This document shows, piece after piece, positions 492 to 7,178 of a DNA stretch of 64,000 bases. Numbering within the stretch: the stretch's first letter is position 1; each line of letters begins with the position of its first letter. Position numbers and translations under genes: made by a program. The notes beneath the pieces were generated by a model. It made no database searches. It saw only the letters and a program-made list of their open reading frames with translations, and was not told where the DNA came from. The DNA is from Bacteroidales bacterium (lineage in GTDB: Bacteria; Bacteroidota; Bacteroidia; Bacteroidales; JAAYJT01): positions 62,001 to 126,000 of the forward strand of contig JACZJK010000046.1 of NCBI GenBank assembly GCA_014860575.1, in the 5' to 3' direction.

Positions 492-3383
492 TTAAAACTT
501 ATAGCTCATACCCAGCCCGAATGAAATCCCTGGATTGTATGAACTAAAATACTCATTTTCGGCCTTGTATGAATGATAAAAACTCTCAATTGATGATTTA
601 AGGATATTTGAAACCTTAACATCTAGCACTAAATGATTATCTATAAATTTCTTATTCAGGCTAAAATTAAGACTATGGAAAGGGTGGTCAAAAATATCAG
701 GAAACAAGCCTGCGCCAACAATAGCCAATGTGGGTCCTTTAATATTATAGAAAATCCCGGCTTCCACTCCCAGATCAAAATTACCGTATGTTAGCCCGGC
801 ATTAATCACATAAGGCGCCTGTCCGGCCATTTGCCTCACAGATTCAACAACCTGCCCTATTTTCTTGTACGTTGTTCTTGAGTTGAACTCACGATCAGAC
901 ATATCAATTTTTGACTGCACCCATGTAAAATTGCCACTGAAATTAAAATTTGCGAGGGACTCAGAAATAAAATTCAAATCCTTTCTAAGTTCAAATTCCA
1001 GCCCTATTAACTCCCCATCACCAACATTGCGAACCTGATACTCAGTACTAGTTTGCTGTTCGGGTATTCTTACCATTTCAATCGGATCGTCAAAATTCTT
1101 GAAGAATGCACTTACTGAGAATATCTGCCCTCTTTCAAGAAACCACTCCCATCTGAAGTCAATGTTATCAATTCTTGTTTCAGTTAGTTTGCCATCCCAG
1201 TCAGCATAAGTAAAAAGGCTGCCGTTAAAGATTCTGTTGGTCAAAGGATCTATGATCTGTGCAAACGAAAGTTCTTTAAAGGAAGGCCTTGCTATGGTAC
1301 GGGTATAACTTACACGCAGATTCTGTTCTTCTGTAAGGGCAAAGATGAAGTTAACAGAAGGGAAAAAATCCAAAGATTCAAGCACCTTATCGTTCACCAG
1401 ATTTTTACCATTTGCAAAATCTCCATTTGCAAAAGTCTGATCCCGGCCTGTATGGCGTTGTACATAGTTCTCGATTCTCACACCAAGAATAGTTCTGAGC
1501 CTCGGAAGCGGGCTAAATTCGTTCTGGATATATGCTGCTGAATTTCGAATGTTCGATTCGTAGGCATTGGGGTTAGGATCATTATTTCCTGACTGGTAAT
1601 AAATAGAATTTGGTTTGTTCGGATAAATGTGATCCGGGATTAAAATCTGGGTTGGATCGGATGTTTGCCATGACTGACTGCCTACAAATTGCATATCGAA
1701 AAACAAAATCTCATATTCGCGTTCTTTGTAGGTATAATTTACACCGAATTTGAGCCGGGCATCCCGATCAAATAAAGTGTATTTCTTATTCACATCAACT
1801 TTCCCTGAACCATTGATTTCACTTAATGACCGCCATATTCTGGATGGGTTTCCACCGGCGCCAGCCAGAAATAATGTATCAAGCGGCCTGTAAGTAAATG
1901 CTGTTTTCCGGATATCAGGATCGGAAGATGTTGACAAAGTCGGTGAAATCCGCCAGTCAATCTCCCAACCAGAATTCCCAATCAGATGATTGCCATTCAA
2001 AAAGAGGTTACTCAGTGCCCTCTCATTATACTCCAGATTATCAGAACCAGCAATATATCCAGATTGTCCTACCGCTTCACCGTCATTATTAAGTAAGAAT
2101 TTTCCAGCCAGGGATTCTCCATTTTGCAGGTGCATAAAAGTAAACCTGATTTTCGACAATTTCGTCTTAAACGCCAGGCCGGCAATCGCTCCAATAAGAG
2201 TACTCCTTTCGCCATATTGTCCGTTTTGAATTGTCGCATATCTCATTTCATAACGGTCAGGATCAAAAAAGCGCTGATATTCGCTAAAAGTTACATTATC
2301 ATAAAATTTATAATCATTTTTATAAGACAAGGCGAATATATAGCCCAATTTGGGATCTTTTGGACTTTCGGAATTCAGACTGATCTGATTACCAAGTGAC
2401 AAACTAAAACTCAGATCAGCAAAGCTTTTCTCTCTGATTGCACCCAGGGTAGGGTTGAAGTTATTGATAAAATTTATCACCTCATCCTGCGGGTGACCGC
2501 TATATGGTGTTGGAACTTTGCTTTCTTTGGCTTGCCCGGGTATAGCCCTGGTCCCGTCATCGAATCCAAGGAAGTCGGTTTTACCTCCTTTATAGGTTAG
2601 GAAATCGGGATTGAGGTGCATATCTGGATTATAAGTTGTGCTTAACGAAACACTGAAAATTTTATCTTCGGGGAAGTCTTTGGTTTCAATATTCATAATT
2701 CCACCTGTAAAATCGGCGGGCAGGTCAGCAGTGAAATTTTTAACTACCATCATATTGTCAACCAGGTTGGTTGGAAAAATATCCATTTGTAAGCTATTCC
2801 GGTCAGGGTCAAGTCCCGGAATATCAACATGATTCAGCATTGTTTTTGAATACCGGTCGCCCAGCCCCCTGACATATACATATTTGCCATCTTCAATGGA
2901 AACTCCGGTTACCCGCTTTGCAGCTTCGACAGCTGTAGCATCGCCAATCAATTTTATTTTAGCTGACGAAATACCATCCATGATTACTACAGATTGTTTC
3001 TTCATTGTCATAAGCACGGCTTCAGTGGTTCTGATGGCTTCAGCCGATATAACTACTTCAGCAAGTTCGAATGAACTCTCCTGCAATAAAATATCATCAA
3101 TCAAAGTAACCTCATTGAGTTTGACCCGCACATTCTCCAGTAAAACTGTTTGATATGAAATATAGGTTATCTGCAATTCATGCGAACCCACTGAAACACT
3201 GATTGAAAATTTCCCATCCAGATCAGTACTGGCTCCAATCGTTGTACCTTTCACCAATACAGTTACCCCAACCAAAGTTTCACCGGTTTTCCCGTCCAAT
3301 ACTGAACCCCTTATTGTGCCGTTCTGAGCCATTGTGCCTGACAGAACTAAAATCAATCCAACCATTAACAGGTACTTTATCAT
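492..3383 (-). CDS. TonB-dependent outer membrane receptor with CarboxypepD_reg-like domain
   Basis: 963 residues. A signal peptide (about 1-19, ending GTMAQ) is followed by a CarboxypepD_reg-like beta-sandwich (about 22-105: GTIRGSVLDGKTGETLVGV), a plug domain (about 120-240, with VYVRGLGDRYS and GGIMNIETKD), and a long beta-barrel ending in an aromatic residue (GLGMSYKF). This is the usual layout of Bacteroidetes receptors that import a ligand across the outer membrane using TonB-ExbBD energy. It lacks a SusD partner. The gene upstream on the same strand encodes a beta-helix lipoprotein, and the next gene, divergent, is a nucleotidase-type phosphoesterase, so a phosphorus-containing ligand is possible; that is inference. 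A 42-bp perfect palindrome lies 24 nt before its start codon. Confidence 0.9.
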   Translation of the reverse strand: MIKYLLMVGLILVLSGTMAQNGTIRGSVLDGKTGETLVGVTVLVKGTTIGASTDLDGKFSISVSVGSHELQITYISYQTVLLENVRVKLNEVTLIDDILLQESSFELAEVVISAEAIRTTEAVLMTMKKQSVVIMDGISSAKIKLIGDATAVEAAKRVTGVSIEDGKYVYVRGLGDRYSKTMLNHVDIPGLDPDRNSLQMDIFPTNLVDNMMVVKNFTADLPADFTGGIMNIETKDFPEDKIFSVSLSTTYNPDMHLNPDFLTYKGGKTDFLGFDDGTRAIPGQAKESKVPTPYSGHPQDEVINFINNFNPTLGAIREKSFADLSFSLSLGNQISLNSESPKDPKLGYIFALSYKNDYKFYDNVTFSEYQRFFDPDRYEMRYATIQNGQYGERSTLIGAIAGLAFKTKLSKIRFTFMHLQNGESLAGKFLLNNDGEAVGQSGYIAGSDNLEYNERALSNLFLNGNHLIGNSGWEIDWRISPTLSTSSDPDIRKTAFTYRPLDTLFLAGAGGNPSRIWRSLSEINGSGKVDVNKKYTLFDRDARLKFGVNYTYKEREYEILFFDMQFVGSQSWQTSDPTQILIPDHIYPNKPNSIYYQSGNNDPNPNAYESNIRNSAAYIQNEFSPLPRLRTILGVRIENYVQRHTGRDQTFANGDFANGKNLVNDKVLESLDFFPSVNFIFALTEEQNLRVSYTRTIARPSFKELSFAQIIDPLTNRIFNGSLFTYADWDGKLTETRIDNIDFRWEWFLERGQIFSVSAFFKNFDDPIEMVRIPEQQTSTEYQVRNVGDGELIGLEFELRKDLNFISESLANFNFSGNFTWVQSKIDMSDREFNSRTTYKKIGQVVESVRQMAGQAPYVINAGLTYGNFDLGVEAGIFYNIKGPTLAIVGAGLFPDIFDHPFHSLNFSLNKKFIDNHLVLDVKVSNILKSSIESFYHSYKAENEYFSSYNPGISFGLGMSYKF

Positions 3384-3406
3384 CGCAATAATTTTTTAAA
3401 ATCTTA

Positions 3407-3448
3407 ATGCAACAGACTTGCAAAATTAATTTTGCAAGTCTGTTGCAT
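3407..3448. promoter_or_regulatory. 42-bp perfect palindrome before the TonB receptor gene
   Basis: Bases 3407-3448 form an uninterrupted perfect palindrome with 21-bp arms centred on attaat. It lies in the 120-bp gap between the lipoprotein stop and the receptor start. On the minus strand it is followed by ttaagatttt, so it could be a terminator or attenuator that lowers receptor expression relative to the lipoprotein, or a protein-binding operator. Confidence 0.6.
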
Positions 3449-3503
3449 ATTTTATGCTTGAATTGGTAAATAGTTAAAAATATTCCTGGGAAGTCGGATC
3501 ATT

Positions 3504-5018
3504 TTATTTTGAAGGGATTTTACCTGCCTGAGCAGCCCATGTCCAGCCAAATACAGAAAGATCTGTGGTGTGTGAAGTACCTGCTGTAATTCCTGCCGGT
3601 ACAGCTCCATTTACATAATTTGCAAGATCTGCTGCGGGCACATCAAGTAAAATTCCAGTGAAGTTAACTACACCGACATTATGAACAACTCGGTTGATTT
3701 TCTGGCCATCTCTGATAGAAGTGATGAAAATGTTTTCAAGATTGACCCTGGAATTATCGTCAGTATTAATAAGATCGGCAGAGAATCTTTCCAGATCAAA
3801 ATCATTAGCAATCACATAACCATTCTTAATTGTGTGGCCGGCGGGATAAGAACCTTCCGGGCCGTCGAGCTCAAAGTTGTGGTCGCCAGGAGCAATGATA
3901 ACAAAGTTATCCAGTGTACCAGCCCAGGACTGGTCAGTATCAATGGCGTCATCATTAACATTCCAAACCACGGCATTTGTAACATTCACTGTACCACCGA
4001 ACCATTCGATGCCATCATCCTGGTTCGAAATAATTTCAATATTTTCAATGATGGTTCCCGATCCAACACCACCCAAAGTAAGACCATTAATCTCATTTCC
4101 AGCACCGATATTGGTTCCGCCATGACGAATGGAAACATATCTGAGAATACCTGAATCGTCAGAATCATCATTACCACCATACAGTCCGTTGGGATCTGAA
4201 GTTGGAATACCCTCAATCTGAACTTCGCTCACGTCACCGTTGTCATTTGAAGCTGAAATTCGGGCCCTACCCAGCACAAGCACACCGCCCCACAATCCAT
4301 CAACATCAGGATCAAGGTTTGGGCTTCCAAAATTGCCGGCAGCAATATCTTCAGGTGATAATTCATCGGCAACTGATGTAAAGATAATAGGTGCGTCAGC
4401 TTCTCCGTCAGCAATCAGCTTTCCACCTCTTGCTATCAGCAAAGCCGTGGCATTTGCTCCGGTACCTGCTTCACCCTTAATGATTGTGCCTGCTTCTATA
4501 GTTAAAGTGGCACCGTTAAGTACGGTGATCCTACCAGCCAATTGATATACTTTATCACTGGTCCAGTCTGTATTTGTGCTGATGTTGCTTGAAACAACAA
4601 CAAGTGTTTCCAATGTAACATTCACCACTGCGGTTGCATCATCTGTTTGGTTTTCATTGTCAGTTACAGCAAGTTTGATAGATGCTGCGCCAGCGGCATC
4701 TCCGGCAGTGAAAGCTACAAAAATATTACCTGATTCTGCATCAGCAGTTCCATTGGTTGTAATGGTTGCAGTTCCATTAACTGCACTTACAGTGGCTGAT
4801 TTAAAACCACCATCAGCTGTGTAACTGAAAATGAGATCAACAACTGCACCGGCTTCGATAGTTTGATTATCGGGCGCGGTCACACTAGGGGCCTTGAAGT
4901 TGTCGCCCTTTTTGCAGGAATTTAATCCAACGACTAATGCTAACATGAAAAATGCCAGCTTAAAGAAATTTCTCTTTTGAAAATTGTTGCTTTTCATTTT
5001 TTTGAATAATTGGTTCAT
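3504..5018 (-). CDS. Beta-helix surface or periplasmic lipoprotein paired with TonB receptor
   Basis: 504 residues. A basic N-terminus and hydrophobic stretch end in a lipobox (VVGLNSC, Cys35), so this is probably a lipoprotein. Residues about 40-135 look like an Ig/cadherin-like domain (PDNQTIEAGAVVDL). Residues about 150-480 form a parallel beta-helix-type region (VLNGATLTIEAGTIIKG, then IENIEIISNQDDGIEWFGG and DNFVIIAPGDHNFELDGPEG). Proteins like this often occur beside CarboxypepD_reg TonB receptors in Bacteroidetes and are sometimes wrongly labelled multidrug transporters. It is the first gene of a likely two-gene unit with the receptor. A second ATG at 4997 also keeps the signal sequence, so the exact start is uncertain. 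Confidence 0.8.
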   Translation of the reverse strand: MNQLFKKMKSNNFQKRNFFKLAFFMLALVVGLNSCKKGDNFKAPSVTAPDNQTIEAGAVVDLIFSYTADGGFKSATVSAVNGTATITTNGTADAESGNIFVAFTAGDAAGAASIKLAVTDNENQTDDATAVVNVTLETLVVVSSNISTNTDWTSDKVYQLAGRITVLNGATLTIEAGTIIKGEAGTGANATALLIARGGKLIADGEADAPIIFTSVADELSPEDIAAGNFGSPNLDPDVDGLWGGVLVLGRARISASNDNGDVSEVQIEGIPTSDPNGLYGGNDDSDDSGILRYVSIRHGGTNIGAGNEINGLTLGGVGSGTIIENIEIISNQDDGIEWFGGTVNVTNAVVWNVNDDAIDTDQSWAGTLDNFVIIAPGDHNFELDGPEGSYPAGHTIKNGYVIANDFDLERFSADLINTDDNSRVNLENIFITSIRDGQKINRVVHNVGVVNFTGILLDVPAADLANYVNGAVPAGITAGTSHTTDLSVFGWTWAAQAGKIPSK

Positions 5019-5408
5019 GAATAGATAGGTTTAGCAGATTTGATTTTATGCGGCAAAAGTAGGCTGGTCATGTTAAGGAAATATTAACACAAAGTGACCA
5101 TTTCGTTAATAAAGCATTATCAAATTGTGAAGATTTAAAGGCATAATTCAAGGAATGCTAAGAAAAGCAACAGGAAAAGAAGACAATACGCAAGCCATCA
5201 AATAATTTACCTCATGCTAATCATATTCTACAGAACCGTTTCAGAAATGATAATCAAACCAACAATTCACCAATGAATATTTTTAGTGAAACAGGCAATT
5301 CGAATTAACCGATTTCTTCTCCCGATTGTTATTATTTTGTTCGTGTGTAAAATACCAAGCTGTTCTTTCGTTAATAATATATGTTTAATGTTTCCTAAGA
5401 TTTCCGCA
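5019..5408. other. Divergent intergenic region between lipoprotein and phosphoesterase genes
   Basis: About 390 bp with no convincing gene. The plus-strand word at 5054-5061 reads TACTTTTG on the minus strand, a match to the Bacteroidetes -7 box (TAnnTTTG) 36 nt before the lipoprotein start. No clear -33 element is at the expected spacing. The rest is AT-rich with no recognisable element. Confidence 0.4.
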
Positions 5409-7178
5409 ATGACCTTCAAAATGTCCCGCGCAGCACTATCTGCATTGGTTGCTTTTCTGTTTTCTACAGTAACTACAGCACAGGATACTACATACCTGAA
5501 AATCATAGTCAGCACCGATGTGCACGGCAGTGTTCTCCCTTACGATATTCTTGACGCCAGATCACGCCCCAATTCATTGGCTCAGGTTTATTCATACGTC
5601 ATGAACGAGCGTCAGAAAAAAAACCAGGAAGTCATATTTTTAGATAATGGTGATATCCTGCAAGGAGACCCTTTCATTTATTATTACAACTTCATTGATA
5701 CCTCCGGTATTCACCCCATGGCACGCGTTATGAACTTCATGCAGTACGATGCTACTACTATCGGAAATCATGATATTGAGGCAGGACATCCGGTGTATGA
5801 CAAGCTTAATATGCAATTTGATTTTCCATGGCTTGGGGCCAACATCATTGACGAAACCACAGGGCTTCCATATTTTAAGCCCTACACTATGATTGAAAAA
5901 AATAATAAAAAAATTGCCATCCTCGGATTGTGCACACCGGCTATACCACAATGGTTACCTGAGGAATTGTGGAGTGGAATGCATTTTGAAGACATGCTAG
6001 TTTCGGCAAGAAGCTGGGTAAGGTATATTCAGCGTAATGAGAAACCTGATTTATTGATCGGACTGTTTCATTCAGGGGCACCTGATGTTGAGTACCCTGA
6101 TGGAATACCGGCCAACCTTGAGCAGGCATCAAGAGTAATTGCACAGCGTGTTGCAGGATTTGATGTGGTATTTACAGGGCATGACCACCGGCGCTGGAAC
6201 GAATTTGTTCCTAACCTGAGCGAAGGTTATACATTGCTGCTGGGCGGAGGAAACAATGCCAGGAATCTAGCTGTTGCCGATATTATCTTAATCTCAGATA
6301 CTATTTCAAACTCAACCCGCAAAGAACTGCAGGGCAATATTGCAGATATGACAAAATTACCAGCCCATGAAGGTTTCCTCGATCAATTCTTTGATTATGT
6401 TTATCCCGTTCAGGATTTTGTAAAGCAGCCTGTTGGTGCACTTACGGATTCTTTGTTCAGCCGCGATGCACTTTTTGGAAGCTCAATGTTTGTGAACCTT
6501 GTGCACCATATCCAACTTGAGATCACAAAAGCCGATCTTTCATTTTCAGCGCCTTTAAGCTTTGATGCAGTGATTCCTGCAGGGAAGCTCACGCGTGGAG
6601 ATCTCTTCAAACTTTACCGTTATGAAAATCAGCTTTACACCATGCAACTTTCCGGACAAGAAGTGCTTGATGTTTTAGAATTCAGCTACAGTAACTGGCT
6701 GAACCAAATGAAAACCAGCAGCGACCATCTGTTGAACTTTGTGAAAGATGAACAGGGCAAGCTCGTAACGGATCCTTATGGCAGACCCCAAACAGCAACG
6801 CCACATTTTAACTTTGAATCGGCTGCAGGCATCATCTACACTGTTGATGTCTCAAAACCTGCAGGCCAACGGGTGAATATTATTTCAATGATTGATGGAC
6901 GGCCTTTCAGCGCCGATTCTACTTATGAAGTAGCGATCAACTCCTATAGGGCCAGCGGAGGCGGTGGGCATCTGACTACAGGTGCCGGAATTCCTCACGA
7001 TGAACTAAACAGACGCATCACCTATACTTCGGGGCAAGATCTCAGGTTTATGATTATGGAATGGATCAGAGAAAACAAAGTTCCTCCATCATCACCTTAT
7101 GTTAACTGGAGCATTGTACCAACAGATTGGCATCTTAAGGGAAAAGCAAAGGACGCCGCGTTGTTGTTTAAAAAGTAA
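5409..7178 (+). CDS. 5'-nucleotidase / 2',3'-cyclic phosphodiesterase family protein (UshA-like)
   Basis: 589 residues from the ATG at 5409, which gives a clean signal peptide (SALVAFLFSTVTTAQ). A GTG at 5286 in the same frame would add 41 residues with a second hydrophobic stretch and is less likely. The metallophosphatase domain carries the dinuclear metal motifs in order: STDVHGSV, LDNGDILQGD, TIGNHDIEAG, GLFHSGAPD and FTGHDHRRW. The C-terminal part (about 350-560) matches the 5'-nucleotidase substrate domain (LSFSAPLSF, INSYRASGGGGH). Enzymes of this family remove phosphate from nucleotides or cyclic nucleotides in the periplasm. The divergent neighbour is the receptor-lipoprotein pair, so the three may work in scavenging phosphate or nucleosides. 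Confidence 0.88.
   Translation: MTFKMSRAALSALVAFLFSTVTTAQDTTYLKIIVSTDVHGSVLPYDILDARSRPNSLAQVYSYVMNERQKKNQEVIFLDNGDILQGDPFIYYYNFIDTSGIHPMARVMNFMQYDATTIGNHDIEAGHPVYDKLNMQFDFPWLGANIIDETTGLPYFKPYTMIEKNNKKIAILGLCTPAIPQWLPEELWSGMHFEDMLVSARSWVRYIQRNEKPDLLIGLFHSGAPDVEYPDGIPANLEQASRVIAQRVAGFDVVFTGHDHRRWNEFVPNLSEGYTLLLGGGNNARNLAVADIILISDTISNSTRKELQGNIADMTKLPAHEGFLDQFFDYVYPVQDFVKQPVGALTDSLFSRDALFGSSMFVNLVHHIQLEITKADLSFSAPLSFDAVIPAGKLTRGDLFKLYRYENQLYTMQLSGQEVLDVLEFSYSNWLNQMKTSSDHLLNFVKDEQGKLVTDPYGRPQTATPHFNFESAAGIIYTVDVSKPAGQRVNIISMIDGRPFSADSTYEVAINSYRASGGGGHLTTGAGIPHDELNRRITYTSGQDLRFMIMEWIRENKVPPSSPYVNWSIVPTDWHLKGKAKDAALLFKK

Follow-up and report, generated by a model that had tools for sequence, protein, structure and literature searches.

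The region analysed here (64,000 nt of a Bacteroidales genome, referred to as the window) carries a lipoprotein gene followed by a TonB-dependent receptor gene, both on the minus strand, with a perfect palindrome in the gap between them. The features of the locus, in window positions, are:

412–450, no strand assigned: perfect hairpin with 17-bp arms and a 5-nt loop, past the receptor stop codon and between convergent genes
492–3383, minus strand: TonB-dependent receptor gene, 963 aa (Pfam PF00593, PF07715, and PF13715)
3384–3503, minus strand: lipoprotein-receptor gap of 120 nt, from lipoprotein stop to receptor start
3407–3448, minus strand: perfect 42-nt palindrome, predicted intercistronic hairpin of the lipoprotein-receptor transcript (−27.9 kcal/mol)
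3504–5018, minus strand: lipoprotein gene, 504 aa (N-terminal part predicted to be strand-rich, residues 136–482 predicted to form a parallel beta-helix)
5054–5061, minus strand: TACTTTTG, upstream of the lipoprotein gene, fitting the Bacteroidetes −7 consensus TAnnTTTG
5066–5131, minus strand: six consecutive 11-nt TTAAC-type Pho-box-like units, ahead of the lipoprotein gene (12/15 for the best triple, cut-off 13)

Neither Pfam nor NCBIfam gave a match to the lipoprotein at an E value of 0.001. Its structure model has a mean pLDDT of 90.5, and residues ~136–482 of the model align with parallel beta-helix proteins (e.g., phage tailspikes and PL6 alginate lyases), the best alignments having Z scores of 21.1 (rmsd 3.3, 262 residues) and 20.4 (rmsd 3.2, 268 residues). 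Foldseek by itself gave weak matches, and the beta-helix emerged on VIA re-alignment. Lipobox-like N-termini are present among the lipoprotein sequences listed. Relatives of the lipoprotein also occur within open frames of ~1,000–2,300 codons in G769, G571, G612, and other genomes, some of which have two to three matches per frame. On its upstream side, the lipoprotein gene shares an intergenic region (5019–5408, with the 11-nt repeats on the minus strand) with a divergent 5'-nucleotidase-like gene (ORF 5286–7178, ATG at 5409), making this region a possible PHO regulon island. At the other end of the locus, the 412–450 hairpin, flanked by the receptor gene and a plus-strand protein gene (1–380), is a probable operon-end terminator.

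The two palindrome arms (3407–3427 and 3428–3448) are 21 nt each and 100% complementary, with 0 mismatches and a 0-nt spacer, exactly as a preliminary description of this DNA had reported. Its claim that such an element is rare by chance was likewise borne out, as ~2e-7 perfect hairpins with arms of at least 21 and a loop of 0–8 are expected in a 64-kb window of this base composition. The palindrome does lie between the lipoprotein stop and the receptor start, as that description had it, and the distance to the receptor start codon, given there as 24 nt, was measured as 23 nt. In a 464-kb sample of the same genome (the window and 20 further stretches of 20 kb each, out of 4.4 Mb), it is the longest of six perfect hairpins (arms ≥14, loop ≤8), the next being the 17-bp-arm hairpin at 412–450. 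A longer one exists in the genome, outside this sample: contig C5 carries a perfect hairpin with 25-bp arms, a 3-nt loop, and a G+C-rich centre (L002:1788–1840). As RNA, the gap region folds with far greater stability than its shuffles (z = −5.67, reached by 0/200). A terminator scan assigned the palindrome stem 19 pairs, of which only seven are G-C, and a search of Rfam across the window gave 0 matches at the gathering score.

To follow the element among relatives, we used receptor matches (E value of 1e-140 or better), which were found in 85 of 393 genomes of the same taxonomic order (43 families). A gap hairpin of ≤ −10 kcal/mol is present in 74/78 same-direction lipoprotein-receptor gaps (≤ −15 kcal/mol in 71/78), against an average of −6.4 kcal/mol for dinucleotide shuffles of those gaps. 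Loci dropped before this count had no receptor match (L080, L116) or no upstream lipoprotein (L021, L083, L089, L115, L118, and 10 of the 11 distant loci L025–L035, L031 being kept). By the start calls used, the four gaps lacking a hairpin are L043, L100, L102, and L110, and L043 regains one if the aligned start is taken. Among loci from named genomes, 19/22 have the lipoprotein-receptor order (L139–L157), all 19 with a hairpin, including Anaerophaga, Marinilabilia, Geofilum, Roseivirga, and Saprospiraceae and Flavobacteriales assemblies. Once gaps are limited to 40–300 nt, the hairpin is present in 88/88 (72 of the 78 plus 16 named-genome loci). This set leaves out L043, L102, and L110 (gap <40 nt), L093, L096, and L100 (gap >300 nt), and the duplicates or near-duplicates L142, L150, and L153, which are retained in the 59 upstream regions and 91 gaps discussed below; the first relative set and the named-genome set may have further species in common. 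For comparison, hairpins occur in 26/72 co-directional gaps of 60–200 nt in the own-genome sample (palindrome locus included) and in 25/48 receptor 3' flanks. The preliminary description had named lack of conservation in relatives as a sign against its reading of the element; what is conserved is the structure, and the exact palindrome is not. No report of this lipoprotein-receptor hairpin was found in the open-access literature, to which the search was confined. As a separate observation, two gaps of 247 and 257 nt (L055 and L018) contain further large inverted repeats (−60.1 and −31.9 kcal/mol, respectively), which give the impression of insertions between lipoprotein and receptor gene.

A lipoprotein-led sample of the phylum consisted of 40 loci picked from the top of the listed matches (241 genomes with a lipoprotein relative, multi-domain frames omitted), of which 38 yielded a gene order (L182 and L205 gave none). 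Here, 19/21 lipoprotein-then-receptor loci have the hairpin. L206 is without one, and L173 was scored as lacking it owing to an early in-frame ATG, the stretch after its lipoprotein holding a hairpin of −26.7. Dependence of the hairpin on gene order was hinted at by the first sample, in which 0/8 receptor-then-lipoprotein neighbours with a gap <150 nt have a gap hairpin (gap hairpins are present in L026 and L028, whose gaps measure 237 and 707 nt), but this was not borne out in the phylum sample, where 10/17 such loci have a gap hairpin, often G+C-rich. Since a hairpin follows the lipoprotein in 17/17 of these reverse-order loci, its presence appears linked to the 3' end of the lipoprotein gene in both gene orders.

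The letters of the hairpin vary among relatives, and pairing is retained through double changes and G-U pairs. In an alignment of 20 hairpins, picked for a shared CAG/CTG stem out of the 25 closest (the other five are without this stem), 83.7% of cells are paired. None of 500 shuffles and none of the slid versions attained the covariation score of 0.351. In 13/19 pairs both sides show changes, a count matched by 40/500 shuffles, and one pair is G-U in 7/20 hairpins. Because letters change while pairing stays, G-U pairs are used, and the apex length (hence the half-site spacing) differs among relatives, these comparisons indicate that the conserved element is an RNA hairpin and not a DNA operator. 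The preliminary description had also offered regulator binding. In an operator reading, the long dyad, or the two copies of the sub-site TGCAAN5TTGCA within it, would bind a regulator of the receptor. The perfect symmetry and the doubled sub-site would suit an operator, but arms that keep pairing through changes in letters and apex length would not, and the distribution of the motifs also speaks against it: the genome holds 19 copies of the sub-site, and of 15 that were fetched, 10 sit within long open frames and two of the remaining five belong to the palindrome locus; the 16-base arm core has no mismatch-free copy elsewhere (six other places with one to two mismatches, three for a reversed control). 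The operator option thus found no support, and we consider it very unlikely. Long perfect palindromes are also a known form of REP- and MITE-like elements, which raises the idea that the palindrome is the relic of a mobile or repetitive element. This we find scarcely plausible, as no second copy was seen (all six other places of the arm core being mismatched), model R1 found the palindrome locus alone in its own genome at an E value of 1 (150/1637 first-look candidates scored), and many relatives have a hairpin in the same position.

With respect to termination, the gap hairpin is followed by a U-run (5 or more T among the 8 nt after the stem) in 51/88 relatives, and several hairpins of the phylum sample resemble full intrinsic terminators. 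The window copy has the stability and position of a stem-loop after a gene (55 nt past the lipoprotein stop), and 3 T in the 8 nt after its G-C core on the coding strand. As this falls short of a U-run, we do not class it among canonical intrinsic terminators; its longer stem and weaker tail give it the look of a hairpin derived from a terminator. T runs of 8/8 were found in 0/88 intercistronic hairpins and in 6/25 receptor 3'-end hairpins, a contrast chosen after the counts had been seen; their absence is as expected if intercistronic hairpins leak. The overall U-run distributions of the two groups do not differ significantly (p = 0.30). A simple scan calls the palindrome terminator-like on the plus strand, with the tail ATTTTATGCT, and the antisense-side A count exceeds the sense-side T count in 27/88 hairpins, both of which would suit a terminator for antisense transcription arriving from the receptor side. 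The sense T count is the higher in 47/88, however, and no antisense gene is known at the locus, so that we hold this function to be most improbable.

The stem itself looks like a common terminator style. The hairpin covariance model also matches hairpins elsewhere in the same genomes, and 8 of 12 inspected lie ≤50 nt past a called gene end (of the others, L166 sits in a convergent gap, 165 nt beyond a gene end, and L164, L170, and L171 are not close behind one). A sequence-specific meaning of the ACAG...CTGT stem was set aside on account of these matches, which lie mostly just past gene ends. The style is not confined to the lipoprotein-receptor locus, since the match L161 (G001:C85:8379–8421, E value of 2.4e-4), in a genome of the same genus, lies just past another gene; G001 has no receptor match at an E value of 1e-60. 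In the genome of the window, CAG..CTG occurs in 13/43 gap hairpins (palindrome locus included), counted by letters and not by pairing. An attenuator or riboswitch was considered unlikely, as the G-C core of the hairpin begins a median of 31.5 nt past the lipoprotein stop in the 88-gap set, which by our inference leaves little room for a sensor.

Promoter-like signals are found ahead of the lipoprotein gene, and weaker ones in the gap. The 11-nt repeats upstream of the lipoprotein are presumably Pho boxes, judging from PhoB sites, and this reading fits the nature of the divergent neighbour as a 5'-nucleotidase-like gene. Such repeats (three 11-nt-spaced TTAAC-like units scoring ≥13/15) precede the lipoprotein in 28/59 regions, against 0.2 for letter shuffles and 0–1 for other spacings. 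The six units of the window stand in register (5131–5066), their best triple falling under the cut-off. Within 120 nt upstream of the lipoprotein, 43/59 regions have TTTGC (4.0 shuffled) and 13/59 have TAnnTTTG (3.6 shuffled), the latter motif being the −7 consensus for Bacteroidetes as given in PMC7366714. Judged by this motif, TACTTTTG at 5061–5054 is the likely promoter of the lipoprotein-receptor operon.

Across whole gaps, TTTGC occurs in 19/91 (8.1 shuffled), 10 of its 20 occurrences being inside the hairpin, and TAnnTTTG in 3/91 (5.6 shuffled). These figures bear on an alternative in which transcription of a monocistronic lipoprotein gene would stop completely at the hairpin and the receptor would be transcribed independently, from a promoter of its own within the hairpin or directly behind it. 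Consistent with this, many relatives' hairpins resemble full terminators, and after the hairpin TTTGC occurs in 9/91 gaps (2.0 shuffled) and TTTG in 25/91 (14.1 shuffled). However, TAnnTTTG after the hairpin was found in 0/91 gaps (2.2 shuffled), with ~48 nt on average between hairpin and receptor start codon, and Pho-type repeats in 0/91 gaps. The window gap (3384–3503) likewise has no Pho-type repeats above the cut-off and neither TAnnTTTG nor TTTGC after the hairpin. By these motifs, most members, the window included, have no clear receptor promoter, and a minority of relatives may have one. Complete termination with an independent receptor transcript therefore appears rather unlikely.

We consider it probable that the palindrome folds in RNA, as a hairpin at the lipoprotein message's 3' end within a lipoprotein-then-receptor operon, and acts there as a leaky terminator or a decay block. 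One promoter upstream of the lipoprotein, probably PhoB-dependent, would serve both genes. The hairpin would either end part of the transcripts, as a leaky intrinsic terminator, or block 3' decay after processing, so that lipoprotein mRNA would exceed receptor mRNA and the receptor would be made from read-through. The other two options of the preliminary description, reduced read-through and a more stable upstream mRNA, agree equally with the conservation of the hairpin, and sequence does not separate them. Speaking against this leaky-terminator or decay-block reading are the U-poor tail in the window, the terminator call of the scan on the other strand, and the promoter-like letters in some gaps. 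In a broader proposal, which we hold to be unlikely, the phosphate-scavenging lipoprotein and the TonB receptor would form one operon across Bacteroidota, uncoupled by a conserved terminator with regulated read-through (e.g., under control of an RNA-binding protein or of phosphate status). The U-poor perfect 42-nt form of the window would then have switched to a processing and stabilising hairpin.

Either mode of action would be a device of an ordinary kind, here in an unusually well conserved position. REP-type sites, for example, protect parts of operon mRNA from decay. Hairpins also do so in Escherichia coli, mostly inside coding regions, according to PMC5927463. As in those cases, a strong stem stands behind the gene expected to be more abundant, whereas the window hairpin is intercistronic. 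Intra-operonic terminators (ioTTSs) set unequal expression within operons in Methanococcus maripaludis, as described in PMC10450193. The locus resembles these in having a hairpin between co-directional genes behind one apparent promoter, with a stem and U-run in many relatives, and differs in that the window copy is a loopless perfect palindrome without a U-run. Both leaky intra-operon terminators and protective 3' hairpins are known already as devices (PMC10450193 and PMC5927463).

The gene pair has possible counterparts in phosphate-starved bacteria. In Caulobacter, the phosphate-starvation lipoprotein ElpS (Cc0170) is encoded beside the TonB receptor Cc0171, which, unlike elpS, was reported to be constitutive (PMC2996285). 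Such independent regulation of the paired receptor supports uncoupled expression, but it also supports an independent receptor promoter. In Flavobacterium johnsoniae, the phosphate-starvation lipoproteins FI and FII occur with TonB transporters, and FI is the most abundant exoprotein (18.7%); unlike the order in the window, two of the four low-phosphate lipoproteins are described as lying downstream of the transporters (PMC8115612). Shared with ElpS/Cc0171 and FI/FII are a lipoprotein beside a TonB receptor and phosphate-linked upstream signals, the beta-helix being predicted here; the likeness is drawn from gene neighbourhood and upstream signals. The analysis connects an odd piece of sequence with the conserved arrangement of an operon for nutrient uptake at the outer membrane. 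An apparent shared promoter together with a separating hairpin predicts unequal amounts of lipoprotein and receptor, and this would explain, if the proteins are relatives, the dominance of the exoproteome by a lipoprotein in phosphate starvation, as with FI in F. johnsoniae.
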